Below are positions 35,623 to 53,005 of a stretch of 64,000 bases of DNA, in pieces. The DNA comes from Schumannella sp. 10F1B-5-1 (GTDB lineage Bacteria > Actinomycetota > Actinomycetes > Actinomycetales > Microbacteriaceae), in assembly GCF_006517535.1 (NCBI RefSeq), contig NZ_VHQH01000039.1, positions 62,001 to 126,000 of the forward strand. The letters run 5' to 3'. Both the position numbers and the translations under genes were made by a program. The notes below the pieces were generated by a model that worked only from the letters and a program-made list of their open reading frames with translations, had not been told where the DNA came from and ran no database searches. Positions within the stretch are counted from its first letter, which is position 1; each line of letters starts with the position of its first letter.

Positions 35623-35774
35623 GCAGTGGGGCCGGTGGCTCACAAGCGGATCCGCAGGACCGGACGCTCCTCACCGCGGAATCCGAAGTGTCGCCCGGTG
35701 GGCTGGTGCTCGACCGCGCGCTCTCGGCGATGGGATGCGCGGCGTCGGCCCGTCCGGTCGCCGCGACGATGGCG

Positions 35775-35780
35775 GATGAT
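35775..35780 (+). promoter_or_regulatory. weak -10 box for the FHA-PP2C genes
   Basis: GATGAT (A at position 2, T at position 6) followed by six bases and the ATG at 35787. The sequence is weak but the spacing is the same as at other leaderless genes here. Confidence 0.3.
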
Positions 35781-35786
35781 GGGGTG

Positions 35787-36356
35787 ATGCAGCTCGACGA
35801 CGACGACACGCGGCCGCGGGCCGCCGTGCCGCTCGCCGGGCCGCCCGCCGCGGTCGACGACCTCGAGGAGACGCTGCGGCTGGGAGCCACGACGCAGCAC
35901 CGCCTGCTCCGCGAGCCCACGCCGCGCCGGGCGCCGCCGGCGCGGCCGCCGGTCGCACCGGCCCACCTCACGCACCGCGTGCGCGTCGGCGGCGCTGCAC
36001 CGCTGTCGCTCGGTGCGCCGGTGCTGGTCGGCCGCGCACCGCGGGCGCCGCGCATCCCGGCCGGGCTGCCGGCGCAGCTGGTCGTGGTCGCGTCGCTGAC
36101 CGGGGAGATCAGCTCGACCCATGTGGAGCTGACCGAGGTCGGCCACGCGGTCGTGGTGCGCGACCTCCGCTCGACGAACGGAACCCGGGTCGTGACGCCC
36201 GGAGGCCCGGCGCGGATGCTGGCGCCGGGCGAGTCCGCCGTGGTGGCAGCGGGTACGGTGATCGAGCTGGGTGACGGCGTGGCCGTCGAGGTGCTGCCGC
36301 CGGGGGTCGCGGGTGCGACCGGGTCCGGCGGCGACGGGGGAGCGGGAACGCGATGA
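35787..36356 (+). CDS. FHA-domain protein
   Basis: 189 residues. The first 60 or so are proline/arginine-rich and unstructured. A forkhead-associated domain follows (about 65-175), with ISSTHVELTEVGHAVVVRDLRSTNGTRV; the S-x-x-H and STNGT motifs are those that bind phosphothreonine. An ETLRLGATTQH segment near residue 35 could be a kinase phosphorylation site, as in GarA-like proteins; that is inference. The stop overlaps the phosphatase ATG (ATGA). In-frame ATG at 35769 and GTG at 35784 are alternatives. First gene of the kinase-to-FtsK locus. Confidence 0.85.
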   Translation: MQLDDDDTRPRAAVPLAGPPAAVDDLEETLRLGATTQHRLLREPTPRRAPPARPPVAPAHLTHRVRVGGAAPLSLGAPVLVGRAPRAPRIPAGLPAQLVVVASLTGEISSTHVELTEVGHAVVVRDLRSTNGTRVVTPGGPARMLAPGESAVVAAGTVIELGDGVAVEVLPPGVAGATGSGGDGGAGTR

Positions 36357-37126
36357 CGGTTCTGGGCGAGTACACGGGCGAGATCGAGATCGAGGTCGCC
36401 GGGGCCGACCCCGTGCGCCTCGGCTGGGGCGTCGCGAGCGACGTCGGCCGCCGTCGTGCCAACAACGAGGACAGCGCCGTCGTGCGCCCGCCGCTCTTCG
36501 CGGTGGCCGACGGCATGGGCGGTCACTCGGCCGGCGACCTGGCATCCAAGGCGGCGGTCGTGCGCCTCGACGAGCACGAGCGCGGCGCGATGGGCACCGA
36601 GCAGGAGATCCTGACCCACCTCGAGCGCGCCGTCGACGACATCGCGCGGGTCGCGGCCGGGGTGCCGGCCGGCGCCGGCACGACCGTGACCGGCGTCGTG
36701 CTCGCCGACGCCGAGGACGGCGGCGCCGAGCTGCTCGTCTTCAATCTCGGCGACAGCCGCACCTACCGCTTCGCCGGCAACGAGCTGACCCGGGTGACGG
36801 TCGACCACTCGGTCGTCCAGGAGCTCGTCGACGCCGGCGCGATCAGCGAGGCCGAGGCCGAGTACCACCCCGAGAGCAACGTGATCACCCGCGCCCTGGG
36901 GTTCTCCGAGCATCCGGAGCCCGACTTCACGCGCATCCCGCTGCGGCCCGGGATGCGGCTGCTGATCTGCTCCGACGGGCTCACCCGCGAGGTCGAGGAC
37001 GCGCACATCCGACTGCACCTGAGCGCGGGCCTCGACCCGCTCGTCACCGCCGACGCGCTCGTGGATGCGGCCCTCGCCTCGGGCGGACGCGACAACGTGA
37101 CCGTGCTCGTCGTCGACGTGCGCTGA
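36353..37126 (+). CDS. PP2C-family Ser/Thr phosphatase
   Basis: 257 residues, soluble, with all PP2C motifs: GRRRANNEDSAVV, ADGMGGHSAGDLAS with metal-binding Asp/Gly, VFNLGDSRTYRF, LLICSDGLTREV, and GGRDNVTVLVVDV. Unlike mycobacterial PstP, it lacks the transmembrane segment and extracellular domain. Coupled to the FHA gene and facing the kinase, so it probably reverses the kinase's phosphorylation. Confidence 0.92.
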   Translation: MTVLGEYTGEIEIEVAGADPVRLGWGVASDVGRRRANNEDSAVVRPPLFAVADGMGGHSAGDLASKAAVVRLDEHERGAMGTEQEILTHLERAVDDIARVAAGVPAGAGTTVTGVVLADAEDGGAELLVFNLGDSRTYRFAGNELTRVTVDHSVVQELVDAGAISEAEAEYHPESNVITRALGFSEHPEPDFTRIPLRPGMRLLICSDGLTREVEDAHIRLHLSAGLDPLVTADALVDAALASGGRDNVTVLVVDVR

Positions 37127-37230
37127 GCTCTTCGCGGCGGCGCGAGACGCCCCGCAGGCCCCCGATCCGGGCTGCCGCGCGGGCTCCCCCCGTTCGGGGG
37201 TGGCTGCCGGGATCGGGCGATGCGCCTGCC

Positions 37231-37236
37231 TACAAT
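37231..37236 (+). promoter_or_regulatory. -10 box for the kinase gene
   Basis: TACAAT, a near-consensus -10, 30 bases before the TTG start of the kinase. It sits in the 140-base gap after the phosphatase gene and may drive the entire downstream operon. Confidence 0.55.
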
Positions 37237-37266
37237 CGGGGGAGTTCCGAGGAGAGGGGGACGACA

Positions 37267-38688
37267 TTGGCGCGCCGTCTGCCGTCTCAGCCCCCTGTGC
37301 TGCCGGGGTTCTCCTTCGTGCACATCCTCGGTTCGGGAGGCTTCGCCGACGTCTTCCTCTATGAGCAGAACATGCCGCGACGCCAGGTCGCGGTGAAGGT
37401 GCTGCTCAACGAGGTCGTCAACGAGAACGTGCGGCAGATGTTCCAGGCCGAGGCGAACCTGATGGGCCAGGTGAGCGCCCATCCCTCGGTCCTGACCGTC
37501 CACTCGGCGGGCGTCTCCGCCGACGGACGCCCCTTCCTGGTCATGGAGCTCTGCTCGGCGATCCTCAGCGAGCGCTACCGTCGCGAGCGCATCCCGGTGC
37601 CCGAGGTGCTGCGCGTCGCGGTCGCGATCGGCAGCGCGATCGAGACGGCGCACCGCGCGGGCGTGCTGCACCGCGACATCAAGCCGTCGAACATCCTCGT
37701 GACCGCCTACGGCCACCCCGTGCTGAGCGACTTCGGCATCGCGTCGACGCTGAGCGCCGAGATCGCCGAGGAGTCGATCGGCCTGTCGATCCCGTGGTCG
37801 GCCCCCGAGGTGCTGCTCGACGAGACGACCGGCACGGTCGCCTCGGAGGTCTGGGCGTTCGCGGCGACCGTCTACTCGCTGCTCGCCGGGCGTTCGCCCT
37901 TCGAGATCCCGGGGGAGTCGAACAGCTCGGCCGACCTCATGGGCCGCATCAACCGCGGTCGACCGCAGCCGATCGGACGTCCGGACGTGCCGGCGAGCCT
38001 CGAGCAGGCGCTGCGTCGGGCGATGTCGCGCCGTGCCGAGCAGCGCCCCGGCAGCGTGATCGAGGTCGTGCGCGAGCTGCAGCTCATCGAGTCGGAGCTC
38101 GGCATCGCGCAGACGCCGATCGAGCTGGCGATGGACGACTGGGCGCTCGCGAGCGCCGGCGACCTGGGCGAGCGCACGCGCGTGCGGGCGGCGCCGGGCG
38201 CGGCCGAGCCGGCGCGCCGCCGTCGTCGACGCGCGGCGGCCGGCGAGGACTACGCCGCGGTCGGCACCCTGCCCCGCGACTTGGGCGCCCCGGTGCCGTC
38301 GTCCGGGCGATCCGGCGGGCTGAGCAGGCGCCGCGGGCCGACCGGCTGGCTCATCGGCACGATCGTCGCGCTCGTCGCCGTGATCGGCATCGTCACGGGC
38401 GTGCTCGTCGTCACGGCCCAGGACGCGCAGTCCATCCCGCGCGTGGCGGACATCCGCGATCGGCAGACCAGCGGCACCGTGCGATTCAGCTGGGACGACC
38501 CGGGGCTGCGCGCGGGCGACCGCTACGTCGTGCAGGTCGACGACGACACCCCGAGCATCCAGCAGGCCGCGACCTTCCAGGTGGATGCGGCCGCCGGCTC
38601 GACCGTCTGCATCACCGTCACCGTCAACCGCGACGGGCGCACCGGCGAGGCCAGCTCGCCGAAGTGCGTCGACGTCGTGGCGGGATGA
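37267..38688 (+). CDS. transmembrane Ser/Thr protein kinase with extracellular FN3-like domain
   Basis: 473 residues. Kinase domain about 15-275: GSGGFADVFLYEQ (glycine loop), VAVKVLL (Lys), VLHRDIKPSNILV (catalytic loop), DFGIAST (DFG), WSAPEVL (APE). A charged juxtamembrane linker precedes one membrane helix at about 360-385 (WLIGTIVALVAVIGIVTGVL). The external part is only about 90 residues, FN3-like, with two cysteines, and carries no PASTA repeats, so it differs from PknB/StkP. TTG start, with GAGGAGAGGGGG upstream. Seven bases separate it from the giant repeat protein. Confidence 0.9.
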   Translation: MARRLPSQPPVLPGFSFVHILGSGGFADVFLYEQNMPRRQVAVKVLLNEVVNENVRQMFQAEANLMGQVSAHPSVLTVHSAGVSADGRPFLVMELCSAILSERYRRERIPVPEVLRVAVAIGSAIETAHRAGVLHRDIKPSNILVTAYGHPVLSDFGIASTLSAEIAEESIGLSIPWSAPEVLLDETTGTVASEVWAFAATVYSLLAGRSPFEIPGESNSSADLMGRINRGRPQPIGRPDVPASLEQALRRAMSRRAEQRPGSVIEVVRELQLIESELGIAQTPIELAMDDWALASAGDLGERTRVRAAPGAAEPARRRRRRAAAGEDYAAVGTLPRDLGAPVPSSGRSGGLSRRRGPTGWLIGTIVALVAVIGIVTGVLVVTAQDAQSIPRVADIRDRQTSGTVRFSWDDPGLRAGDRYVVQVDDDTPSIQQAATFQVDAAAGSTVCITVTVNRDGRTGEASSPKCVDVVAG

Positions 38689-38695
38689 GGCGGCG

Positions 38696-41600
38696 ATGAT
38701 CCGCCGCTGGCTCGCCGCCCGCAAGGGAGCGGTCGCGACGGCCGTGAGCGGCGCCCTGATCACGGCCGTGGTCGCCGCCGGCGCGATCCTCTCCACCGGG
38801 TACACGGCGCAGAAGCTCGACCTCGATCCCGGTGCGGTCTGGGTCGTCAACGACGCCGAGCAGGCCGTCGGCCGCGCCAACACGCAGGTGCGCGAGCTCG
38901 ACACGGTGGTGCGCACGACCGGCACCGACGTCGAGCTGCTGCAGTCCGACGACACCGTGCTCGTGGTCGACCGCAGCAATGCCTCCCTCGACACGCTCGA
39001 CCCCGCCACGGGCGAGCTGGGCGAGACCGTGGCGCTGCCGCCGGAGCAGCCGGAGGCCTGGCTGGCCGGGGACAACGTCGTGATCCTCGCGCGCGGCACG
39101 GGAGAGGTCTGGATCGTCCCGCTCACCGATCTGCAGGGCTTCGATCCCTCGAGCGAAGCCGAGCTGAACTTCGGCCGTCAGGCCGTCGCGACCGTCGACG
39201 CCGACGGCATCCTCTGGGCCTACGGCCCGGAGACCGGCGAGGTCTACCGCGTCGACGCGGCGGCCGGCGCGCAGAAGTCCGATCAGCGCTGGACCGTCGA
39301 TCTGCCGCGCGACGACGACAGCTACAGCATCTCGGCGGTCGCCGGCCGCTGGGCCGTCGTCGACGCCGACGACGGCCGCATCGCCCTGCAGGATCGCGGC
39401 GTGGTCTCGCTGCGTGGTCTGCTGGGCGCCGACGGCGACGCGGTCGTGCAGCTGCCGAGCGAGTCCGGCGACGCGGTGCTCGTCGCCGGTCGACGCGGCC
39501 TCGTCAGGGTGCCCTTCGGCGACGGCCGGGTGCAGCGGCTGGCCGACGGCGGCGGCACGCCGGCCGCTCCGGCCGTCGTGGGCACCTGCCGCTACGCCGC
39601 CTGGACCGGCGTCGGGGCCTGGCGGCAGTGCGACGGATCCGCTCGTCGCACGCTCGAGCTGGAGTCGCTCGACGGAGCCGCGCAGCTCGACTTCGTGCGC
39701 AGTGGCAAGCGCCTCGTGCTCAACGACACGCGCAGCGGAGGCAGCTGGGCCGTGCAGCACGACGGCGAGCTGATCGACAACTGGACCGCGCTGCTGCAGA
39801 AGGACGACGACCGCCAGGTCGTCGACGACGATGAGGACACGCCGCCCGAGGTCGCCGACAAGCAGGAGCCGCCCGTCGCGGTCGACGACGACCTCGGTGC
39901 GCGGCCGGGCCGGGCGACCGTGCTGCCGGTGCTGCTCAACGACTACGACCCCAACGGCGACGTGCTCGTCATCCAGAGCGCCGACACGCTGCCCGAGGCC
40001 GTCGGCCGCGTCGATCTGATCAACCGCAACCAGCAGCTGCTGCTCACGCTGCCGGCCGGCGCATCCGGAGTCGTCTCGTTCGCCTACACGATCACCGACG
40101 GCCGCGGCGGCTCCGCCTCGGCGACCGTGCGCGTCACCGTGCGCGAGCCCGGCGAGAACTCGCCGCCGCAGCAGGTGCGCGCCTCGAAGACCACCGTGCG
40201 CGCCGGCGGCGAGGTCACGGCCCAGGTGCTCGGCGACTGGATCGACCCCGACGGCGACGCCATGTTCGTGCGCACCGCCTCGGTCGCGCCGCCCGACCAC
40301 GTCACCTCGAAGCCGGACGGCGCGGTGCTCTACTCCGACGCGGGCGAGGGCGGCGACCTCAAGTCGGTCACCCTGGTCGTCTCCGACGGGATGGCCGACG
40401 GCACCGGATCGCTGGCCGTCACCGTGCGCGCGGCCGGCCAGGTGCCGATCATCGCCGATCCCTTCGCCGTGATCGCCTACGCCGGCCAGACCGTGACCGT
40501 GGCGCCGCTCGAGCACGTGCGCGGCGGTAACGCGGTCGTGCGTCTCAACGCCGTGCCGGCGAAGTCGGGCGCGACCGTGGTGCCCAGCTTCGACGCCGGC
40601 ACCTTCACCTTCGTCAGCGACCAGGTGCGCACCCACAACCTCGAGTACGTCGTGACCGACGGCACCCAGACCGTGACCGGCCAGGTGCGCATCGAGGTGC
40701 TGCAGCCGCCCGACGCGAACGCCAAGCCGATCACGATCCCCAAGACGATGTTCGTGCATCCGCTCGCGAGTCAGACGATCGACGTCGCCGGCAGCGACAA
40801 GGATCCCGCCGGGGGCGTGCTGCTCGTCACCGCCCTCAGCGGGGTGCCGGCGGGCAGCATGCAGGCCGAGGTGCTCGAGCAGCGCGCCGTGCAGGTCACC
40901 CTGACGGCGCCGCTCGAGGGCGCCGTGACGTTCGGCTACCGCATCACGAACGGCCTCTCGGAGTCGGACGGCACGATCACCGTGATCGAGATCCCGTTCC
41001 CGAGCGTCGTGCAGCCGCCCATCGCGCGCGACGACTCCGTGACGGTGCGCGTGGGCGATGTGATCGACATCCCGGTGCTCGACAACGACGAGCAGCCCGA
41101 CGGTGAGGACATCACGCTCGACCCGGTGCTGCCGCAGGACGTGCCGAGCGGCTCCGGTCTGCTCTTCGTCTCGGGCGACCGGCTGCGCTTCCTCGCGCCC
41201 AGCCAGGCCGGCACCTTCACCGCCGTGTACCAGATCAGCTCGCTCGGGCAGACGGCGCAGGCCACGGTCAAGATCTCGGTGCGCGAACGCGACGCCGCGA
41301 CCAACAACGCGCCCGTGCCGCAGGTCGTCACCGCCCGCGTGATCGCCGGGGAGACGGTCGACATCCGCATCCCGCTCAGCGGGATCGACCCCGACGGCGA
41401 CGAGGTGCAGCTGCTCGGGCTCGCGACGAACCCGGAGAAGGGATCGGTCACCTCGACGACGGCCACCGGCATCGTCTACCAGGCCGGCGCCTACTCCACC
41501 GGAACCGACACCTTCACCTACACGGTCATGGACGGTCTCGGAGCTCGCGCCACCGGAACCGTGCGGGTGGGCATCGCCGCCCGGGTCGAAGCCGGCCGCA

Positions 41601-44600
41601 ACCCCATCGCGGTCGCGGATGCCGTGATCGCCCGCCCCGGCACGACGGTCACGGTGCCCGTGCTCGACAACGACTCCGACCCCGACGGCGCCCAGCTGCA
41701 CGTCACCGCGGTCAAGCCGAACGACGCGACGGTGACGGCGAAGGTCGTCGACGAGCGCTACGTGCAGATCGCGGTGCCGAAGGACGAGGGCAGCTACGGC
41801 CTCGTCTACAGCATCGCCAACGAGACCGGCGGCATCGCCTCGAACTTCGTCACCGTCACGGTGGCCGCCGACGCGCCCCTGTCCCGTCCCGTCGCCGAGG
41901 ACACCGTGCTGACCGTCACCGATGTGCTCGGCAAGCGGAGCATCAGCGTGCCCGTGCTCGACAACGTCTTCTTCGCCGACGGCGCCGTGTCGACGCTCGG
42001 CGTCGCGCTGCTGCCCGGCTACGACGACGGCGCCCGGGTGCTCGCCGACAAGCGGATCCGCGTGGAGGTCGGCGACACGAGCCGGGTCATCCCCTTCGTC
42101 GTCACGCACCCGAAGGACCCGAGCGTGCGCGCCTACGCGTTCCTGCGCGTGCCGGGCTACGACGACGCGCTGCCGCAGCTCAACACGAAGGCCTCGAAGA
42201 TCACGGTCAAGAGCGAGTCGACGGTGCGCATCGATCTCAACGACTACGTCGTCGCGCTCGGCGGATCGCGGGTGCGGCTGACCGACACCAGCACCGTGCG
42301 CGCCACGCACGCCAACGGCGACACGCTCGTCGTCGACGACGACACGCTGCAGTACACCTCCGCCGACCAGTATTTCGGTCCCGCATCGATCTCGTTCGAG
42401 GTCTCCGACGGCGACCCGTCCGACCCGAAGACCCGCAGCGCCGTGCTGACCCTGCCGATCCAGGTCGACCCGCGGCAGAACCAGCCGCCCGTGTTCACCG
42501 GCGCCTCGCTCGAGTTCGAGCCCGGCCAGCAGCGCGAGCTCGACCTCGTGCGGCTCACCAACTACCCCTATGCCAAGGACGTCGACGAGCTCGCCTACGC
42601 GAAGGTCGGAGCCGACCCGACCGGGTTCCGGGTGCAGATCAACGGGCAGCGGCTCGTGCTGACCGCTGACGCGAGCGCCGCGAAGGGGACATCGACGTCC
42701 CTCACCCTCGGGGTCCGGGATCGCGACAACACCGGAACCGCCGGCCGCATCCAGCTCAAGGTCGTCGCCTCGACCCGGCCGCTCGCCAAACCGGTCGCCG
42801 ACGCCGCGATCGCGCAGCGCGGACAGACCACGACGGTCGATGTGCTCGCGAACGACGCCCCGAACAACCCGTTCCCGGGCAGCCCGCTCCGCGTCGTCCA
42901 GGTGCTCGGCATCGACGGGGCGTCGCTGCCGGATGGCGTCAAGGTGACGCCGAGCGCCGACAACTCCCAGCTCACCGTGCAGGTCTCGGCCACCGCCGCG
43001 CCCGGTGACACGAACCTCCAGTACCAGGTCGCCGACGCGACGCGCGACCTCGACCGCTACGTCTGGGGCGGGGTGCGCATCTCGGTGCAGGACCGCCCCG
43101 ACCCGGTCACGAACGTGCGGGTGACCGAATTCGGCGACCGCACGCTCCGGGTCGCGTTCTCGCCGGGTGTCGCCAACAACTCGCCCATCACCTCCTACGA
43201 GGTGACCGCGACACGTGCGTCGGGCGGGGGCGGCGCGACGACGACGCGGTGCACCGGATCGGCCACCTGCCGCATCGCGACCGACGGCAACGGGCCCAGC
43301 AACGCGGTGTCGATCTCGGTCGTCGCGATCAACGCCATCGGACGTTCGGATGCCGCGACGCTGCCGGGCACGATCTGGTCGGACATCATCCCGCCGCCGC
43401 CGACCGGACTCAGCTCGCGTCCGCTGAACACCGGGCTGCGGGTCAGCTGGGCCAAGCCGGTCGACGCGGCCGCCGCGAGCCCGATCACGTACTACCTGGT
43501 GACCGTGGGCGGCATCTCGCGCACCGTGTCGGTGAGCGCGAGCGACGCCCCGGGCACCGTGTACTCCACGTCGATCACCGGCGCCTCGATCGTCAACGGC
43601 AGCGCGACCGGTTACACGGTCAGCGCCCGTAACGGCGCACCGAACTCCCTCGCGCAGTGGAATGAGGCCTCCGGCAGCGGGATCCCCGCCGGCGCGCCGA
43701 TCGCGACGGTGTCGCCGACCGCATCCGGGCAGGGCACCACGCAGGCGACCCTCGGCTGGTCGGGCGTGTTCTCGTCGAACGGCCGGGACATCGGCAAGTA
43801 CTACGCCGTCGCCTACACGGGCACCGCTCCCGAGTGCGCTGTCAGCACGTCGGACGACGCCGCGCCGGTCATCACGCCGCCCACCGGACCGAACGTGCAG
43901 TCGCTGCCATCGACGGCGACGAGTGCCACATTCTCGGGGCTCGCCGTCAACCAGAGCTACTCGCTCGTGGTGTTCGCCGACAACGGGCAGGGATGCACGT
44001 CCTCCGCCGCGGTGAGCTTCGTGCCGCGCGAGGCGCCTGGCCGCGTGACCCGCATCCTCTCGTCGGCGCCGAGCCCGGGCTCGCCCGATGGCGACGGAAC
44101 CTGGAACTGGCGGATCGACTCGATCAGCGCCGACGGCGACTGGGATGCGGTGAAGTACCGGGTGATCGGCGACGGCGTCGACGCCTCGACGTCGGGCGCC
44201 GTGGTCCCCGGCTCGTCGTCGGCGATCATCACGACCGGCAACGGCTCGCACTACGGCCGCAGCATCGGCGTGCAGGCCATCGCCTGCAAGTACTACCCCG
44301 AGCTGGCGACGGGCGGATCCGACGGATACCTCTGCGGTTCCACCTGGTCGGACACCTTCGCGGTCGGCGTGCCGGTGAGCGCGCAGGTCGGCGGGCTCAC
44401 CCACGCCGTCTCGGCCGACGACCCCTCGACCGCGACATGGTCCTGGACCTCCACGACCGCGGGCCCCGATTACGGCAAGGTCGAAGTGAGCTGCGATCGC
44501 GGCGCCACGTGGATCGACACCGGCAACCAGGGCGCGCCCGGAAGCTGCACGGTGACGGACCTCGGCGGGCTCGTCGGCATCTGGCCGCCGCTCACGATCC

Positions 44601-44650: not shown

Positions 44651-45651
44651 ACGGCACGACCGCCAGCCCCGCCCAGCGGGTCACGATGACGCCCGAGCAG
44701 GCGGCGTGGTACCAGGACACCTTCGCGCGGCTCGTGACCAACGTCGAGCAGGTGCTGGTCGGCAAGACCTTCGTCGTGCGCCTCGGATTCGTGGCTCTGC
44801 TCAGCGAGGGCCACCTGCTGCTCGAGGACTTCCCGGGCACCGGCAAGACCTCCCTCGCGCGGGCGATCGCGCAGAGCGTCGACGGCAGTTCCAGCCGCGT
44901 GCAGTTCACGCCCGACCTGCTGCCCGGAGACATCACCGGCGTCAGCATCTACGACCAGCGCACGGGGAGCTTCGAGTTCCATCGCGGCCCCGTGTTCGCG
45001 AACATCGTGCTCGCCGATGAGATCAACCGCGCCAGCCCGAAGACCCAGGCCGCGCTGCTCGAGGTCATGGAGGAGCGCCACATCACGGCCGACGGCGTCG
45101 AGCACTCCGTCGCGGCGCCGTTCATGGTCATCGCGACCCAGAACCCCATCGAGCAGGCCGGCACCTACCGACTGCCCGAGGCGCAGCTCGACCGCTTCCT
45201 GCTGAAGGCCTCGATCGGATATCCCGACCACGCCTCGACCCTGCGCATCCTCGAGACCGCCGGCAGCCGCTCGCACGAGATCACGCTCGACCCGGTGATC
45301 GGCGCCGCGCAGGTGGTCGAGATGGCGCGGCTCGCCCGCACGGTGCACGTCGACCCGACGATCAACGACTACGTCTCCCGCCTCGTCGAGGCGACCCGCA
45401 CGGCGACCGAGGTGCGCCTCGGCGGCAGCGTGCGCGCCGCGCTCGCCCTGATCCGCGCCGCGAAGACGCTCGCCGCCGCATCCGGACGGCACTACGTCAT
45501 CCCCGACGACGTCAAGGCCCTCGCCGAGCCCGTGCTCGCCCACCGCCTCGTGCTCGACCCTGAAGCCGAGTTCGACGGGGTCACGACCTCGGGCGTCGTG
45601 TCGCAGATCCTGATCGAGACCCCGCCGCCGAGCGATCGGCAAGCTGTGTGA
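44644..45651 (+). CDS. MoxR-family AAA+ ATPase
   Basis: 335 residues, chaperone-like AAA+ protein. Walker A FPGTGKTSLARAIA, then the MoxR signature RVQFTPDLLPGDITGVSIYD, Walker B NIVLADEINRASPKTQAALLEVMEE, sensor 1 ATQNPIEQAGTYRLPEAQLDRFL, and C-terminal lid. GTG at 44644 has AGGAG six bases upstream; ATG at 44686 is the alternative. MoxR ATPases normally act with DUF58/VWA and transglutaminase-fold membrane proteins, exactly its next two neighbours. Confidence 0.93.
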   Translation: MVDGTTASPAQRVTMTPEQAAWYQDTFARLVTNVEQVLVGKTFVVRLGFVALLSEGHLLLEDFPGTGKTSLARAIAQSVDGSSSRVQFTPDLLPGDITGVSIYDQRTGSFEFHRGPVFANIVLADEINRASPKTQAALLEVMEERHITADGVEHSVAAPFMVIATQNPIEQAGTYRLPEAQLDRFLLKASIGYPDHASTLRILETAGSRSHEITLDPVIGAAQVVEMARLARTVHVDPTINDYVSRLVEATRTATEVRLGGSVRAALALIRAAKTLAAASGRHYVIPDDVKALAEPVLAHRLVLDPEAEFDGVTTSGVVSQILIETPPPSDRQAV

Positions 45652-47045
45652 GCAGTCCCGGACACTCCCGGGGTGTCACCCAGCGCACCGGCACCCGCAC
45701 GCTCGACGCGCATACCTCCACCGACACTCTGAGCAACACGCGCACCCGCATCGTGGGAGCGCGCACCGGCGTGCTCGCCGACGGGGTCGTCGGCATCGTG
45801 CGCATCGGCAGTCGCGTCGGCGCCGGCATCGCCCGGGTCGCGCGGAGGGTGTCGGCCGTCATCACGCCGCTCGGCTGGGTCATGCTCGGCGTGCTCATCG
45901 CCGCGGCGGTCTGCGGCTACCTCGTGCTCGGCTGGGTCGAGGCCGTCGTGGCGTTCTGGATCGCCGCCGTGCTGATCGTGGTGGCCGCGCTCGCGCTGAT
46001 CGGACGCAACGCCTTCCTCGTGCGCCTGGACCTGCCCCGCCGCAAGGTCGTCGTCGGCGAGCCGGCGTCGGCCAGCATCGAGGTGCGCAGCGCGGGCCGG
46101 CACCGCTCGCTCGGCGCCACCGCCGAGATCCCGGTCGGCGAGGGCCTGGCCGAGGCGGCGATCCCGGGACTGCGGCGGGATGCCGTGTTCCGGCATGAGT
46201 TCGCGGTGCCCACGCGACGGCGGGGCCTGGTCGCGATCGGCCCCGTGCGCACCGTGCGCGCCGACCCCATCGGGCTCGTGCGCCGCGAGCTGCTCTGGAC
46301 GGGCCGCGAAGAGCTGGTCGTGCATCCCCGCACCATCGCGGTGCCCTCGACCAGCACGGGCCTCATCCGCGATCTCGAAGGCGCCGCCACCGCGGACCTG
46401 ACGCCCAGCGACGTCTCCTTCCACGCCCTGCGCGAGTACCAGGCCGGGGATGACCGCCGCTACATCCACTGGAAGTCGACCGCGAAGACGGGCACCTACA
46501 TGGTGCGCCAGTTCGAGCAGACGCGCCGCAGCCACCTCGTCGTCGGCCTCAGCACGGCGGCCGCCGATTACCTCGACGACGAGGAGTTCGAGCTCGCCGT
46601 CAGCGTCGCGGGCAGTCTCGGCGTGCGCGCGATCCGCGACGGCCGCACCGTCTCGGTCGTGGTGGGGGAGAAGACCCCCGAGTTCGCGAAGCGCCGCGTC
46701 TACGCGGTGCGCCCGCTCTCGACCGTGCGCCCCGGTCGCCTGCTCGACGATCTGGCCGTGGTCGCGTCGGCGCCCACGGCGCTGCCGGTGCGGGATGTCG
46801 CGCGGGTCGTCGCCGACACCGTCACCGGCGTCTCGATCGCCTTCCTGATCACCGGGTCGGCCACCGGCATCGCCGAGCTGCGTGCGGCCTCGGCCGCCTT
46901 CCCCGCGGATGTCGAGGTCGTCGCGGTCGTCTGCGACCCGGATGCGAAGCCCGGCCTGCGTCGGGTGCCCGGTCTCAACGTGCTGCGCGTGGGGCTGCTC
47001 GACGATCTGCGCCACGCTCTCGCCCGAGCGGCGGCCGTCTCATGA
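45648..47045 (+). CDS. DUF58-domain membrane protein
   Basis: 465 residues. Basic, disordered N-terminus, two closely spaced membrane helices at about 80-125 (VMLGVLIAAAVCGYLVLGW and AVVAFWIAAVLIVVAALAL), then a cytoplasmic or surface domain with the DUF58 signature FHALREYQAGDDRRYIHWK, which resembles a von Willebrand A-like fold. Coupled by GTGA to moxR and by ATGA to the next gene, so the three are translated as a unit. Confidence 0.9.
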   Translation: MSSPGHSRGVTQRTGTRTLDAHTSTDTLSNTRTRIVGARTGVLADGVVGIVRIGSRVGAGIARVARRVSAVITPLGWVMLGVLIAAAVCGYLVLGWVEAVVAFWIAAVLIVVAALALIGRNAFLVRLDLPRRKVVVGEPASASIEVRSAGRHRSLGATAEIPVGEGLAEAAIPGLRRDAVFRHEFAVPTRRRGLVAIGPVRTVRADPIGLVRRELLWTGREELVVHPRTIAVPSTSTGLIRDLEGAATADLTPSDVSFHALREYQAGDDRRYIHWKSTAKTGTYMVRQFEQTRRSHLVVGLSTAAADYLDDEEFELAVSVAGSLGVRAIRDGRTVSVVVGEKTPEFAKRRVYAVRPLSTVRPGRLLDDLAVVASAPTALPVRDVARVVADTVTGVSIAFLITGSATGIAELRAASAAFPADVEVVAVVCDPDAKPGLRRVPGLNVLRVGLLDDLRHALARAAAVS

Positions 47046-49345
47046 GCGCCGCCACCCCGCGACCCCGCCGCGGACCGGTGATGATCCTGGTCACGCTCGG
47101 CTTCGCGGAGCTGCTGCTCGCCCTGGCCGTCGTGAAGCTCTGGCCGATCTATCGCGACGGCAGCTTCCTGCTCGCCGCGGGCGGCGCGATCGTGCTGGGC
47201 AGCCTGATCGCCGGGCTCGGCGCGCTGTTCCGCTGGCGCGTCTGGGTGCTGATGGTCGCGTCGTTCCTCGTCTTCCTGGCCGCGGGCGTGCCGCTCGCGG
47301 TGCCGTCGCAGACCGTGCGCGGGGTCGTGCCGACGCTCGACGGCGTGCGCGATCTGCTGTCGGGCGTCGTGCTCGGCTGGCGTCAGCTGCTCACCATCAC
47401 GCTGCCGGTCGGCGACTACCAGGCCCTTCTCGTGCCGGCCTTCGCGACCCTGCTCGTCGCGAGCGTCATCGCCGTCTCCGTCGGGCTGCGGGCGCGCTAC
47501 GGCGAGCTCGGGGCGATCCCGCCGATCGTCGTCATCGTCGTCGCGATCCTGTTCGGCGCCGAGCGCGTCGAGTCGGGCGGGCTCATCACCGGGACCGCCA
47601 TCGCGATCGCGCTGCTGTGGTGCGTCTGGCGCCGCGCCGCCCGCCGTCGCGCCGCCGTTCGGCAGCTGCTCGGCGACGCGGGCGAGCCGGTGCGCGCGCT
47701 GGGGGTGCGATCCCTGCTGGCGGCCCTCGGCATCCTGGTCCTGGCGGGGTCGGGTGCCGGCATCGCGGCCGCCGAGCTGCCGTCGTCGCAGGCGCGCACC
47801 GTGCTGCGCAGCGCGGTCGCCCAGCCGTTCGACCCCCGTGACTACGCGAGCCCCCTGGCGGCGTTCCGCAGCTACCTCAAAGACGGTCGCGACGACGAGA
47901 CCCTGCTCACCGTGACCGGACTCGAACCGGGGGAGCGCATCCGCATCGCCACCCTCGACGACTACGACGGCGTCGTCTACCGCGTCGGGGCGGGAACCGC
48001 CGACAGCGGATCGGGGACCTTCGTGAGGGTTCCGACGACCGTGGACCGCCCCGGCGAGCAGGGGCGGCGCATCAGCCTCGACGTGCGCGTCGACGGATAC
48101 CGCGGCGTGTGGGTGCCGACAGTCGGCGATCTGTCCTCGGTCGAGTTCACCGGTGACGACGGAGATGCGCTGCGCGGCCGCTTCTACTTCAACCGCCTCA
48201 GCGGCACCGGCGCCGTGCTCGGCGGGCTGACCGCCGGCGACAGCTACCGGCTCACGGCGCTCGAGCCGACCGAGCCGACCTCCGCCCAGCTGGCGAGTGC
48301 GACGCCGGGCACCGCACGCGTGCCCGCCGCCACGACCGTGCCCGACTCGGTCGGCGCGCGGCTCGAGCAGTACGACGCCGGGGCGACCACTCCCGGCGAG
48401 CAGCTGACGGCGGCGCTCGACGGACTGCGCCGCGACGGCTACATCAGCCACGGCATCGACGTCGACGAGCCGGCCAGCCGCAGCGGTCACTCCGCTGAGC
48501 GGATCGACGAGCTGCTGACCGCGCCCCTCATGATCGGCGACGCGGAGCAGTACGCGGTCGCGGCGTCGCTCATGGCCCGTCAGATCGGGTTCCCGTCCCG
48601 CGTCGTGATCGGCTTCGCGCCCGCCGACGACAGCGGCGGCGCGATCACGGGTGCGGACATCTCAGCCTGGATCGAGGTGAGCACGGCCGAGTACGGCTGG
48701 GTCTCGCTCGACCCGGTGCCCGAGGTGCGGCCGATCCCGGATGCGCCGCCCACCGATCCCACGCAGATCTCGCGCCCGCAGACCCCGGTCGAGCCGCCGC
48801 CGGACGAGCCGGAGCCGCACACGGAGCAGAACCAGCCCGACAGCACGCAGGACGACGACTCGGGTGACGACGCCTGGCTGCAGGTCGTGCTGGCGTTGCT
48901 GCGTATCGCCGGGCCCATCGCGCTCGGCCTCGGTCTGCTGGCCTCGCCGTTCCTGGTGATCGTCGCGCTCAAGGCGCGCCGGCGTCGACGGCGCCGCTAC
49001 GCACGGGTGCCGCTCGAGCGCATCAGCGGCGCCTGGGACGAGTTCCACGACGCGGCGGTCGACCGCGGTCACCCGCCGCTGCCGTCGTCGACGCGCACCG
49101 AGTTCGCCGAGTCCGTCGGGCTGGCGCAGTCGCGCACGCTCGCCGCCGTCGCCGACCGCGCGGTCTTCTCGTCGGACGTCGTCGACCCGGCTGAGGCCGA
49201 TCGCATGTGGCGCGCCCTGCGCGAGCTCGACTACTCGCTCGATCGCGGACTGACCCGCTGGCAGCGCATCCGATCCCGGGTGTCGCTGCGCTCGCTCGGC
49301 GCAGACCCCCAGCGCAGGCGACTGCGCGACAGGAGAACACCATGA
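47042..49345 (+). CDS. transglutaminase-fold membrane protein, catalytic Cys and His missing
   Basis: 767 residues. Six or more membrane helices in the first 260 residues, a large extracytoplasmic part with the transglutaminase-like core at about 480-570, a further membrane helix near 630 and a cytoplasmic DUF4129-like tail. In active relatives the core reads GDCEQFA and AHAWVEV; here it is GDAEQYAVAASLMARQIGFP and DISAWIEVSTAEYGW, so the nucleophile Cys is Ala and the His is Ser, while the Asp (SLDPVPE) remains. It is therefore probably a non-catalytic binding or scaffold protein. Coupled to DUF58 and to the zinc-ribbon FHA gene. Confidence 0.85.
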   Translation: MSAATPRPRRGPVMILVTLGFAELLLALAVVKLWPIYRDGSFLLAAGGAIVLGSLIAGLGALFRWRVWVLMVASFLVFLAAGVPLAVPSQTVRGVVPTLDGVRDLLSGVVLGWRQLLTITLPVGDYQALLVPAFATLLVASVIAVSVGLRARYGELGAIPPIVVIVVAILFGAERVESGGLITGTAIAIALLWCVWRRAARRRAAVRQLLGDAGEPVRALGVRSLLAALGILVLAGSGAGIAAAELPSSQARTVLRSAVAQPFDPRDYASPLAAFRSYLKDGRDDETLLTVTGLEPGERIRIATLDDYDGVVYRVGAGTADSGSGTFVRVPTTVDRPGEQGRRISLDVRVDGYRGVWVPTVGDLSSVEFTGDDGDALRGRFYFNRLSGTGAVLGGLTAGDSYRLTALEPTEPTSAQLASATPGTARVPAATTVPDSVGARLEQYDAGATTPGEQLTAALDGLRRDGYISHGIDVDEPASRSGHSAERIDELLTAPLMIGDAEQYAVAASLMARQIGFPSRVVIGFAPADDSGGAITGADISAWIEVSTAEYGWVSLDPVPEVRPIPDAPPTDPTQISRPQTPVEPPPDEPEPHTEQNQPDSTQDDDSGDDAWLQVVLALLRIAGPIALGLGLLASPFLVIVALKARRRRRRRYARVPLERISGAWDEFHDAAVDRGHPPLPSSTRTEFAESVGLAQSRTLAAVADRAVFSSDVVDPAEADRMWRALRELDYSLDRGLTRWQRIRSRVSLRSLGADPQRRRLRDRRTP

Positions 49346-50199
49346 CCAGCTGCCGCTTCTGCGGAAGCCCCCTGCCCGTCGGCGCGCTGTTCTGCGGCGA
49401 GTGCGGCCGTGCCGTCGGCGCGACGTCCATCCCGGCAGCCGTGCCGGTCGTCGTCGAGCCCGTGCCGGTCGTGGCGGTTCCGTCGGGCGAGGGAGCCCGC
49501 GGGTCGGCGGCCGTAGCGGCGCGTCCGCCGGTCGCGCAGCCGACGCCGCAGGCGGAGCAGCGGCTTGTGCCGCAGCCCGAGCTGCAGCCAGAGCCGCAGC
49601 CCGAGTCCGAGTGGATGCGCGACCCCGACCCCGAGCCTGAGCGTGCGCCCGAGCCCGGAGCCGAGCCGCCGCCGTCGGGTGCGCCATCCGCCGGGGCGCC
49701 TCCACCTGCCCCGGCACAGGCCCCGACGGCCGAGCCTCTGCTGCCCGTGCCCGACCTCCCGCTCCCGCCGCCCGCACCCGGTCTCGCTCCCGGGCTGCCG
49801 GGGCTGCCGCCGGGACAGCGGGAGATGCCGGTCGACCTCGAGCAGACGCGCTTGGTGCAGCGAGGGTCTCGGCCCGCGAGCTGGGTTCTGCAGTTCTCGA
49901 CGGGGGAGTCGTTCACCGTCAGCGGGTCAGGTCTCATCGGGCGCAACCCGGTGGCCCAGCCCGCCGAGTTCATGGATCAGCTCGTGCCGCTCTTCGACGC
50001 GGGCAAGTCGGTGTCGAAGACGCATCTCGAGTTCGGCCAGGACGAGGGCCGGTTCTGGGTGGCCGACCGGTTCTCCACGAACGGCACGGTGGTGCGCCCG
50101 CCCGACGGCCCGCCGCGGCGGTGCGAGCCGGGTCGTCGCTACCTGGTCTCGCGCGGCACGCGGATCGATATCGGGGAGCAGTTCTTCGTCGTGAGCTGA
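49342..50199 (+). CDS. zinc-ribbon and FHA-domain protein
   Basis: 285 residues. N-terminal zinc ribbon with two CxxC pairs (CRFCGSPLPVGALFCGECG), then a Pro/Glu/Ala-rich linker of about 135 residues, then a C-terminal FHA domain (about 175-283) with SVSKTHLEFGQDEGRFWVADRFSTNGTVV. It should bind phosphothreonine, linking the kinase to the secretion-type ATPase gene that follows. ATG overlaps the previous stop (ATGA) with AGGAG upstream. Confidence 0.88.
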   Translation: MTSCRFCGSPLPVGALFCGECGRAVGATSIPAAVPVVVEPVPVVAVPSGEGARGSAAVAARPPVAQPTPQAEQRLVPQPELQPEPQPESEWMRDPDPEPERAPEPGAEPPPSGAPSAGAPPPAPAQAPTAEPLLPVPDLPLPPPAPGLAPGLPGLPPGQREMPVDLEQTRLVQRGSRPASWVLQFSTGESFTVSGSGLIGRNPVAQPAEFMDQLVPLFDAGKSVSKTHLEFGQDEGRFWVADRFSTNGTVVRPPDGPPRRCEPGRRYLVSRGTRIDIGEQFFVVS

Positions 50200-50287
50200 G
50201 TCCTCCCCAGCCCGTCGTGGATCCGCGTTCTCCACGGATCGCGGTCGAGCGCGGTCGCCGCGCCCGCGACGCTGGTGCGATGAGCGC

Positions 50288-53005
50288 ATGCTCCTGCTCC
50301 CCGAGCCGCTGACACTGACTCTGCCGCGCGCCGATCCGCCCCCGACTCGCTCCGGACTCCCGATGCTCGGCGCGCTCGCCCCGCTCGTCATGGCGATCGT
50401 GCTCTGGGCGGTGACCCAGTCGATCGTGTCGCTGCTGGTCGGGCTCCTGAGCCCGATCCTGGCTCTCGCCGCCCTCCTGGATCGGCGACTGGCGGCACGG
50501 CGTCATCGTCGTGCCGACCATGAGCGGCTGCGCGTGGAGCTCGAGCGGCTCGCGGAGCGGGTCGGTCGGCATGGCGACGAGGAGCGCCACCGGCTGACGC
50601 GCGCGTCGGCCGGCACGACCGCCGGCCGCCGTGCGCTGCGCATCGGCACGGGGTCGATGCCCTCGGGCATCGCGTGGAACGCCGAGAGCGGCGCGCCGCT
50701 GCCGGCGGACCTCGCGGCCCGGGCCGACGGGCTGGCGGCGGGCTCGGCGCGGATGTCGTGTCCCGTCGTCCTCGAGATCGACGACGGCATCCGCGTCGTC
50801 GGCTCGGGCGTCGTGATCGCGGCGGTCCGGCGCGCGCTGGCCCTTCAGGTCGCGCAGATCCTGCCGCCGGAGGACTGGATGCTGACCGCGTGGCCGGACG
50901 AGGAGGCGGCGTGGATCGACCTGCTCCCGCATCGACGTCGGCGACCCGACGGCGCCGGTCGCGACGCGGTCGACTATGTCTTCCGGGAGGTCCGCCCGGC
51001 GGGGGAGGCGCGAACGGTGCGGATCGGAGCGGCTCCCGACTCCGGCGGGTCGATCCCGGTGCTCGAGATCGATCCCGCGGGACGCGCATCCCTCGATCTC
51101 GACGGCGAGCACGTCGACGCCGCGGGCCTGCGTCTCGAGACCCGCACCCGGGCGCAGGCCGCCGACACGGCTCGCCGGCTCGCGCGCGCCTCAGGGGGCG
51201 AGGCGACACGATCCGCGCTGCCGTCCTACCTCGCCTTCGCCGACCTCGACCAGGAGGATGACGGGGCCCTGGCAGCGGCGGTCGGGATCGACGCCGCGGG
51301 CGACACGGTCGCGCTCGACCTCGACCGCGACGGACCGCATGCGATCGTCGGCGGGACCACGGGCTCGGGCAAGAGCGAGCTGCTGGTGACCTGGGTGCTC
51401 GCGCTGGCGGCCCGGTCCGGCCCGGATCGCCTGGCCGTGCTGCTGGTCGACTTCAAGGGCGGGGCGGCGTTCGCGCCGCTCGAGGCGCTTCCCCAGGTCG
51501 TCGGCGTGCTCAGCGACCTCGATCAGCGTGCGGCCCGCCGCGCGGTGACGAGCCTGCGCACCGAGCTGCTGCGCCGTGAGCGGCTGCTGGCCGACAGTCG
51601 GGTGCGCTCGGTCTCCGAGCTCGCTCCGGATGCGCTGCCCCGCCTGCTGGTCGTGATCGACGAGTTCGCGGCGCTGGTCGCGGAGCAGCCCGACCTCAGC
51701 GCCGTCATCGCCGATCTCGCGGCGCGAGGGCGATCGCTCGGCATCCACCTGATCCTGTGCACGCAGCGCCCGGCAGGTGTCGTGAAGGAGTCGGTGCTCG
51801 CCAATGCGACGCTGCGGTTGAGTCTCCGGGTCAACAGCCGTGCCGACAGCTCGGCGGTCGTGGGCGACGACAGCGCCGCGACGCTGCCGGTCGATGCGCG
51901 CGGGCGTGCCGTGCTCGCCTGCGACGGGGCGACGCGACCGGTTCAGATCGCGCTCGCCGGGCCCGCCGACGTGCGACGCGTCGCCGAGCGGTGGCGGTCG
52001 GGTCGCCGGGCGGCGCCGTTCTGGACGCCGGGCCTGCCGGCGCGGGTCGGGTATGACGAGCTGCCACCGGCAGGGGCGCAGGAGCTGCGGTTCGGGCTCG
52101 TCGACCTCCCGCACGAGCAGCGGATCGGTGCGGCCGTCTACCGGCCTGCCGTCGACGGGCACCTGCTCGTGGTCGGCGGCCGCGGGGCGGGGACGAGCAC
52201 CGCGCTCGCGGCGATCGCCGCCGATGCGCGCCAGGCCGTGCAGGTCCCCGACGACCCCGCCGGCGCGTGGTCGGTGCTCACCGCCGTGATCGCCGGGCTC
52301 GAGGATCGGCCGGTCGAGCAGCTGATCGTGCTCGTCGACGATGTCGATCGGCTGCTGGAGGCGGCCGGCGACGACCATCGCGCCGACCTGGTGGTGCTGC
52401 TCGCCCGCGTCGCCCGCGAGATCGCTCGGGACGGCGGAGCGCTCGTGCTCGGAGCAGCCCGCCCCCTCACCGGTGCGGCGACGCTGACCGCGCAGCTCGA
52501 TGCCCGCCTGCTCCTGGCCATGCCGACGCGCGAAGACCATGTCATGGCGGGCGGGGAGAGCCGGGACTGGAGCCGCGACCGGCGGGCGGGCTCGGCGGTC
52601 TGGCACGGCCACGAGGTCCAGATCGCAGTCGCCGAGCCGACCGCGGCGCCGGCCGTCGTCTGCCCCTCCCTCGACCTCGGCGGCGACGTCGTGTCGATCG
52701 CCAGCGCCCGACCCGCGGCGATCGCCGCCGCGCTGCTGCGACGCGGCGTCGCCGTGCACGCCGTCGATCGAGCCGAGGAGGCGCGGCCGGGCTCGGTCGT
52801 GCTCGGCGATCCCGACGACTGGCTCGCGGAGTTCGGCGCGATCGAGCGCGCCCGTCGCGGCCGCCTGCTGGTGCACGCGCTCGCGGCCGCTGATCTGCGG
52901 GCGCTCACCCGGATCCGCCGAGCGCTCCCGCCCCTCGATCCGCGCGCGGAGGAGGCGTGGCTGGTGGAAGCCCGCGAGGTGAGCCGCGTGCGCGTGCCGT
53001 GGTGA
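50288..53005 (+). CDS. FtsK/SpoIIIE-type ATPase resembling EccC/EssC
   Basis: 905 residues. Two membrane helices near residues 20-65 (LGALAPLVMAIVLWAVTQSI), then a DUF-like region, then an FtsK domain with Walker A IVGGTTGSGKSELLV (about 355-365), DFKGGAAFAPLEALPQVVGV, and Walker B LLVVIDEFAALV. A second ATPase-like domain follows in which Walker A reads GGRGAGTSTALAA, the Lys replaced by Ser, with VLVDDVDRLL as Walker B. The C-terminal region has VVLGDPDDWLAEFG, like domain 3 of type VII secretion ATPases. No WXG100-type gene occurs in the window. Starts 88 bases after the FHA protein. Confidence 0.85.
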   Translation: MLLLPEPLTLTLPRADPPPTRSGLPMLGALAPLVMAIVLWAVTQSIVSLLVGLLSPILALAALLDRRLAARRHRRADHERLRVELERLAERVGRHGDEERHRLTRASAGTTAGRRALRIGTGSMPSGIAWNAESGAPLPADLAARADGLAAGSARMSCPVVLEIDDGIRVVGSGVVIAAVRRALALQVAQILPPEDWMLTAWPDEEAAWIDLLPHRRRRPDGAGRDAVDYVFREVRPAGEARTVRIGAAPDSGGSIPVLEIDPAGRASLDLDGEHVDAAGLRLETRTRAQAADTARRLARASGGEATRSALPSYLAFADLDQEDDGALAAAVGIDAAGDTVALDLDRDGPHAIVGGTTGSGKSELLVTWVLALAARSGPDRLAVLLVDFKGGAAFAPLEALPQVVGVLSDLDQRAARRAVTSLRTELLRRERLLADSRVRSVSELAPDALPRLLVVIDEFAALVAEQPDLSAVIADLAARGRSLGIHLILCTQRPAGVVKESVLANATLRLSLRVNSRADSSAVVGDDSAATLPVDARGRAVLACDGATRPVQIALAGPADVRRVAERWRSGRRAAPFWTPGLPARVGYDELPPAGAQELRFGLVDLPHEQRIGAAVYRPAVDGHLLVVGGRGAGTSTALAAIAADARQAVQVPDDPAGAWSVLTAVIAGLEDRPVEQLIVLVDDVDRLLEAAGDDHRADLVVLLARVAREIARDGGALVLGAARPLTGAATLTAQLDARLLLAMPTREDHVMAGGESRDWSRDRRAGSAVWHGHEVQIAVAEPTAAPAVVCPSLDLGGDVVSIASARPAAIAAALLRRGVAVHAVDRAEEARPGSVVLGDPDDWLAEFGAIERARRGRLLVHALAAADLRALTRIRRALPPLDPRAEEAWLVEAREVSRVRVPW

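Follow-up and report, generated by a model that had tools for sequence, protein, structure and literature searches.

A PFNA-family gene cluster outside bifidobacteria and the linkage of its relatives to type VII secretion genes

The window analysed here is a stretch of 64,000 nucleotides from Schumannella sp. 10F1B-5-1 (family Microbacteriaceae, order Actinomycetales; contig NZ_VHQH01000039.1, positions 62,001 to 126,000). Between positions 35769 and 53005 its forward strand carries a run of nine genes, denoted FHA1, PP2C, KIN, FN3, MoxR, DUF58, TGM, FHA2 and FtsK (Table 1). A first-pass annotation, made from the sequence alone, had listed nine same-strand genes in this order, and this was confirmed by gene calling and by Pfam matches above cut-off to, successively, FHA, PP2C, Pkinase, Big_9/cadherin-like/fn3, AAA_3 (MoxR), DUF58, Transglut_core with DUF4129, FHA and FtsK_SpoIIIE. 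The 1984-residue protein that it had described was recovered exactly. The five central genes, KIN-FN3-MoxR-DUF58-TGM, correspond to the core of the bifidobacterial PFNA operon, in the same order and on one strand.

Table 1. Genes of the nine-gene run, with positions in the window.
Gene	Positions	Strand	Description	Support
FHA1	35769..36356	+	small FHA protein (start uncertain)	PF00498, 23.2 bits (cut-off 20.7)
PP2C	36353..37126	+	Ser/Thr phosphatase, prpC type	PF13672, 1.7e-10
KIN	37267..38688	+	membrane Ser/Thr kinase, TTG start, one transmembrane helix	PF00069, 3.5e-35
FN3	38696..44650	+	1984 residues; N-terminal helix, propeller-like N-terminal region, Big_9/cadherin-like repeats, fn3 domains	Pfam
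MoxR	44686..45651	+	AAA+ ATPase (alternative start 44644)	AAA_3, 9.7e-62
DUF58	45648..47045	+	DUF58 membrane protein	PF01882, 9.2e-11
TGM	47042..49345	+	polytopic membrane protein, apparent pseudo-transglutaminase domain, DUF4129 tail	PF01841, PF13559
FHA2	49342..50199	+	FHA protein, N-terminal zinc-ribbon-like stretch	PF00498, 2.2e-6; zinc ribbon 21.7 bits, below cut-off 25
FtsK	50288..53005	+	short EssC/EccC-like ATPase, two transmembrane helices, a single intact ATPase domain; second P-loop region lacks the Walker Lys	PF01580, 8.6e-34

In bifidobacteria the PFNA core reads pkb2-fn3-aaa-atp-duf58-tgm (PMC8430577; PMC6803598). Some species, but not all, also have accessory genes downstream of tgm, namely prpC, one hypothetical gene and fha; all eight PFNA genes are listed for four species, B. 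aesculapii among them (PMC8430577). Published work describes PFNA as unique to bifidobacteria (PMC8430577), reports that no orthologues were found in other organisms (PMC6803598), and notes that the mycobacterial moxR operon resembles PFNA (PMC12067865). This literature was not considered in the first-pass annotation. When the window proteins were compared with the B. aesculapii PFNA locus, FN3 matched with 30% identity over 1681 residues (E = 3e-165), MoxR with 56%, DUF58 with 34% and TGM with 31% over 775 residues; PP2C (35%), FHA2 (29%) and KIN (30%, its gene being cut by the end of that locus) also had counterparts there. FHA1 and FtsK had no match in the B. aesculapii locus, and no FtsK-type gene was called among the 23 named Bifidobacterium loci in our comparison, which belong to the same order as the window's family (one of them, L138, is identical to B. 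gallicum; L, G, C and f numbers are our handles for loci, genomes, contigs and families). The seventh, "hypothetical" gene of the B. aesculapii operon (L160:13449-14054) matches LRV_2 repeats (3.1e-36). The window locus belongs to the PFNA family and comes from outside the bifidobacteria. When 100 genomes of the window's family were searched with a profile of the FN3 N-terminus, 85 gave a match; so did 60 of 119 genomes of the order, spread over 13 families including the window's, and 14 of 148 genomes of the class. Of these 14, 7 belong to the order and 5 to a single further family, and 2 are weak partial matches. The earlier forecast that such operons may occur in other members of the family was right: all nine genes stood in the window's order at 13 of 20 fetched family loci, a set chosen mostly for carrying them. 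Genes in fetched loci were called with a simple codon-usage caller, which missed some genes, supplemented by six-frame profile searches.

The TGM protein departs from an active transglutaminase. Aligned to the solved structure 6g49, which we take to be the TG domain of TgpA, it has Ala501 in place of the catalytic Cys and Ser541 in place of the His. The Cys was absent from all 83 distinct PFNA-type TGM proteins (from 85 rows, two ids being doubled), its position being occupied by A, S, D, Q, G or E; the His was kept in only 7, and the Glu-Gln following the Cys position was invariant. A TGM was called in 22 of the 23 Bifidobacterium loci, and all 22 have Ser at the Cys position. As a control, 30 Transglut_core loci from the window's genome and its relatives, a subset of all matches, were read by eye: the 27 non-PFNA domains all kept Cys and His, and the three PFNA-type loci had neither. 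Because the Cys is missing from every one of the 83 proteins, the PFNA-type TGM looks catalytically dead as judged from its sequence, and we rejected the possibility of an active transglutaminase in PFNA. No prior statement of the PFNA TGM as a pseudo-enzyme was found in the literature searched, judged from listings.

The second line of evidence is the company kept by PFNA-type clusters elsewhere. The window's own genome holds two further FN3 clusters, on contigs C320 and C13. On C320, TGM is followed after 116 nucleotides by a WXG100 gene (9.3e-15) and then by T7SS_signal proteins, and the cluster includes a 1554-residue FHA-EssC protein. The C13 copy of KIN-FN3-MoxR-DUF58-TGM has, within ≈31 kb, a 1339-residue FtsK and two WXG100 genes over cut-off. 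The C320-type EssC was found in 31 of the 119 genomes of the order at an E value of 4.2e-247 or better, and G184, in which the gene is split by a contig end (4.1e-156), brings the total to 32. FN3 was located within 20 kb of this EssC in 20 of the 32 genomes, representing nine families, and on the same strand in 19 of these 20; in 8 of the remaining 12, FN3 was found elsewhere. Among 12 fetched regions (L209-L220), EssC was called within the run and on the same strand in 10. It was uncalled in L212 and L214, probably a miss by the caller, since the search of the order's genomes places EssC there. The arrangement is clearest in G177 (L153, L217), which reads PP2C-FHA-KIN-x-FN3-MoxR-DUF58-TGM-EssC, with neighbours no more than ≈56 nucleotides apart and WXG100 genes following EssC at 53 and 65 nucleotides. 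L219 is similar, with two WXG100 genes ≈1.5 kb later and two other called genes intervening. Seven loci were tested for WXG100: four scored over the Pfam cut-off (L209, L217, L218, L219), and the other three (L215, L216, L220) stayed under it. The same layout was present in another order, in L226/L227 (blastp relatives of the C320 WXG100) and in L229, which is cut inside EssC. Four of the PFNA-linked ATPases, with 504-541 bits, fell short of the EssC model's cut-off of 778 and are therefore EssC-like rather than curated members. All 12 FHA domains of the PFNA-linked EssC proteins that were read by eye showed the Arg/Ser/His/Asn pattern.

A protein of ≈234-264 residues with a DDNPYLHR motif, which we call x241, was seen beside the kinase, FN3 or EssC in L089, L144, L145, L149, L153, L213 and L215. 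By eye it resembles a degenerate FHA protein; it had no Pfam match where this was tested (L149, L153).

The FtsK of the window is a smaller relative of these motors. It is 905 residues long, with one Pfam FtsK domain and a weak second P-loop region, and scores 217 bits on the EssC model; its solved relatives in the PDB include YukB and EccC5. In 20 aligned rows, the Walker Gly-Lys-Ser and Asp-Glu of the first domain were invariant, and the Lys of the second P-loop, missing in the window, was present in 8. In a tree of 71 domains, 26 window-type rows formed one clade (support 98/90), the sister of which was weakly placed; the branching between this clade and that of the PFNA-linked EssC was also weak (85/65).

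In FHA1 the four residues of the phospho-threonine site (Arg, Ser, His, Asn) are conserved throughout the 12 rows aligned. The PP2C motifs GDSR, SDG and GGRDN were found in 26 of 26 rows and DGMGG in 25, with one gap. The window KIN has the catalytic Lys, HRD and DFG, and its extracytoplasmic tail of ≈107 residues matched no Pfam family. HRD deviates in one of 19 aligned kinases, perhaps a KIN-like protein of 392 residues in L096 (G131), which sits between PP2C and FHA2-FtsK and has Thr replacing the catalytic Lys. FN3 had been described as an anchored surface protein; the basis for this is a single hydrophobic helix, at its N-terminus. The N-terminal profile matched a surface-layer protein chain, 1l0q_A (E = 1.7e-5), presumably a beta-propeller. 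One FN3 homologue, in the PFNA and EssC run of L219 (L219:6202-7461), is just 419 residues long, lacks the repeats and ends right before MoxR; a search for its solved relatives gave only chance-level matches. The window MoxR scored 46.8 bits on bpMoxR (cut-off 27) vs 207 bits on AAA_3.

Some details of the locus differed from the first description. The junctions were said to overlap mostly by 4-7 bases; overlaps were found at four of eight (FHA1/PP2C, MoxR/DUF58, DUF58/TGM and TGM/FHA2), all of 4 nucleotides, and the run is broken by gaps of 140 nucleotides between PP2C and KIN and 88 between FHA2 and FtsK. A 7-nucleotide overlap of FN3 and MoxR requires the MoxR GTG start at 44644; we preferred the ATG at 44686 because the orthologues are ≈323 residues long. 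No start codon lies at position 35775, where the locus had been taken to begin; the closest ATG in frame is at 35769, and alternatives lie at 35688, 35730 and 35787. The genes immediately upstream of the run are on the opposite strand, and those downstream of FtsK resemble a polyamine ABC transporter in their sequence features. Long antisense open reading frames across the locus are probably high-GC artefacts. No sigma-70-type promoters were found in the locus (0.2 expected), no RNA families matched, and the terminators (3 found, 1.7 expected) were uninformative. Elsewhere in the window (28270-30645), a 791-residue protein has an N-terminal helix and repeated D-x-D-G-x-x-D-like stretches, FG-GAP/VCBS-like by eye.

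We somewhat favour the explanation that the locus, as a PFNA-family member outside bifidobacteria, encodes a phospho-regulated envelope complex, and that the common job of the module is most likely to form the envelope and regulatory half of a type VII secretion arrangement that has no name yet. The second part follows from what is seen in many relatives, where the module adjoins a full-length EssC and several loci have WXG100 genes as well. The membrane kinase would sense an extracytoplasmic cue and phosphorylate cytoplasmic partners, which PP2C would reset. MoxR may be one such partner, by the precedent of B. longum, in which MoxR is reported to be phosphorylated by Pkb2 and the PFNA genes are co-transcribed (PMC8430577). 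FHA1 and FHA2 would dock on phospho-threonines, and the MoxR ATPase would remodel or load a membrane assembly of DUF58 and TGM. The TG domain of TGM, outside the membrane and without its Cys, would act as a binding or scaffold domain rather than a cross-linker. FN3 would be inserted via its own N-terminal helix and project a propeller-like base and an Ig/fn3 stalk, and the EssC-like FtsK may be a second motor recruited to the locus. The window copy, with its short ATPase and no WXG100, and the bifidobacterial copy, with no such ATPase in the inspected loci, would be reduced or repurposed versions.

More tentatively, at a little below even confidence, we propose that PFNA as a whole is no host-sensing invention of bifidobacteria and supplies the envelope and phospho-control parts, one half, of a type VII subtype of Actinomycetota that has yet to be described. 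Bifidobacteria would have kept this half without the motor, and the window's family would run one copy with a short EssC-like substitute. The candidate parts of such a subtype would be PP2C, FHA, kinase, the FHA-like x241, a propeller-Ig FN3, MoxR, DUF58, the pseudo-transglutaminase, FHA-EssC and a pair of WXG100 proteins.

Several observations weigh against the favoured explanation. The window-type FtsK clade stands apart from the clade holding 14 PFNA-linked EssC rows, and we rejected descent of the window FtsK from a PFNA-linked EssC because it forms a clade of its own. The FHA-EssC on C320 lies on the opposite strand to FN3, and the 1339-residue FtsK on C13 is a distant branch of the tree. 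An FN3 match was missing in 4 of the 32 EssC genomes, and the C320-type EssC was missing, at the threshold used, from 32 of the 60 FN3-bearing genomes of the order. In the window locus there is no WXG100 gene, nor was any further gene called between the nine. The propeller assignment of the FN3 N-terminus derives from one profile match. Finally, the window-type FtsK stands apart from the PFNA core in 16 of the 54 family genomes that have it (54 of 100, at 1e-70).

The last of these points bears on the idea that the locus is two neighbouring modules with no joint function, a frame of FHA-PP2C-FHA-FtsK having received the PFNA core. The first-pass annotation had named scattered orthologues in close relatives as an outcome that would speak against a combined unit, and such scatter was found in part. 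The family neighbourhoods were counted over all 54 FtsK rows, the first 110 TGM rows and 120 FN3 rows, omitting the second piece of G093. In the core, TGM and FN3 were within 12 kb in 106 of the 110 TGM places. FtsK was within 6 kb of TGM in 36 of the 54 genomes, and in G081 and G103 its neighbourhood was hidden by short or broken contigs. Ten of the 16 separate FtsK loci were fetched: PP2C adjoined in 9, an FHA gene was present in 6 and a kinase-like gene in one (L096), and FN3 was absent within the fetched 20 kb in all ten. One of them, L100, had no PP2C, FHA or kinase; at a greater distance it carries a MoxR-like gene and a weakly matching DUF58 gene. FtsK with PP2C and/or FHA, the core being absent from the fetched 20 kb, occurred in L093, L094, L095, L098, L099, L103, L104 and L105. 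Conversely, L101 and L102 have FN3-MoxR-DUF58-TGM but no FtsK, and L102 carries KIN and an FHA gene besides. The two sets of genes are thus separable in relatives and form two modules, FHA-PP2C-FHA-FtsK and KIN-FN3-MoxR-DUF58-TGM, that are often but not always nested. The 140-nucleotide gap ahead of the kinase is in keeping with this division. That the modules have no joint function is nevertheless unlikely, given the adjacency of FtsK and TGM in two thirds (36/54) of the genomes, the presence of a different, full-length EssC near PFNA FN3 in nine families, and the location of both other FN3 clusters of the window's genome within ≈31 kb of ATPases of EssC size.

The first-pass annotation had proposed a joint machine in which FtsK exports or assembles the giant FN3 protein under the control of phosphorylation. 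The joint machine survives in part: the components do keep turning up side by side, and a type VII-like ATPase is genuinely linked to them, more strongly so elsewhere in the order. The conserved neighbourhood and the kinship of FtsK to EssC/EccC would also suit export by FtsK. FN3, however, has its own N-terminal hydrophobic helix, the top-scoring TGM occurred without a window-type FtsK (at 1e-70) in 12 of 52 genomes, where other FtsK/EssC proteins could stand in, and two genomes (G075, G156) have the FtsK without an FN3 or TGM match. We consider this form of the proposal quite improbable; a modular phospho-regulated envelope machine fits better. More improbable still is the reading put forward for bifidobacteria, an adhesin operon that senses the host, in which FN3 binds cytokines and TGM acts in signalling: B. 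longum FN3 fragments bind TNF-alpha and PFNA is co-transcribed (PMC8430577, PMC10688814), but the FN3 N-terminus is matched in 13 of the order's families, the window's among them (although those genomes may be host-associated), the catalytic Cys is missing from every TGM homologue examined, and the short FN3 of L219 has no repeat region.

The evidence points to an envelope machine that is common to many actinobacteria and is often tied to type VII secretion genes. PFNA has so far been treated as bifidobacterial, host-immune-shaped and transglutaminase-bearing. With the cluster beside a type VII motor in many relatives and a TGM that lacks the catalytic Cys, its published role needs rethinking. 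Its spread over many actinobacterial families and the type VII linkage shift attention from the sensing of a host towards machinery of the envelope and of secretion, a question that can be tested in ordinary laboratory actinobacteria. The finding also suggests targets for some MoxR-DUF58-transglutaminase modules. The apparently dead TGM and the FN3-EssC linkage, both read from sequence, seem new relative to the literature searched; no tie between PFNA and type VII secretion was found there, judged from titles and the starts of abstracts, in a search outside which supplements and subscription journals lay.

The phospho-regulated envelope complex proposed here can be compared with several known systems. 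A full EccC/EssC ATPase has four predicted NTPase domains (PMC11217815); the window FtsK, at 905 residues and 217 bits, falls short of the family cut-off, and the WXG100 gene typical of type VII secretion is absent from the window locus but present in the C320 cluster of the same genome. Secretion by the window copy is therefore unsupported. The variants T7SSc to T7SSj include, in various subtypes, kinases, phosphatases, FHA proteins and an EssC/EccC-type ATPase (PMC11217815), parts shared with the window (kinase, PP2C, FHA proteins, ATPase of that type), whereas MoxR, transglutaminase and fibronectin go unmentioned in the main text of that paper. One part of T7SSd is TsdI, a large Ig-like protein of the envelope with a Sec signal and a C-terminal transmembrane helix (PMC11217815). 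We rejected membership of the window locus in T7SSd, as FN3 has an N-terminal helix only and the TsdI-like protein is unmatched by the FN3 profile. That 1788-residue protein (L225) comes from G236:C2 (L223-L225; Bifidobacterium family, f36), where a PFNA core lies ≈13 kb from a T7SSd-like cluster of a WXG100 relative, a kinase, a 140-residue protein, the 1788-residue protein and EssC.

TgpA of Pseudomonas aeruginosa, to which the alignment with 6g49 likens the window TGM, keeps the Cys-His-Asp triad and shows activity (PMC3507681), unlike the PFNA TGM without its Cys. The MoxR Proper (MRP) loci have the same MoxR-DUF58-transglutaminase trio, as noted for PFNA in PMC6803598, but in the window the trio is embedded with kinase, FN3, FHA and FtsK genes. 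MoxR-vWA-beta-propeller conflict systems combine bpMoxR, vWA and propeller partners; the window has DUF58 where a plain vWA protein stands, and its propeller is a profile match only. With the PFNA operon of Bifidobacterium the window shares the five core genes in order on one strand, the PP2C and FHA accessories, and gene-by-gene homology. The window lacks the LRV-type hypothetical gene and does not follow the bifidobacterial layout of prpC, this gene and fha downstream of tgm. Instead, PP2C and an extra FHA gene stand upstream of the kinase, and FHA2 and the FtsK-type ATPase lie downstream.

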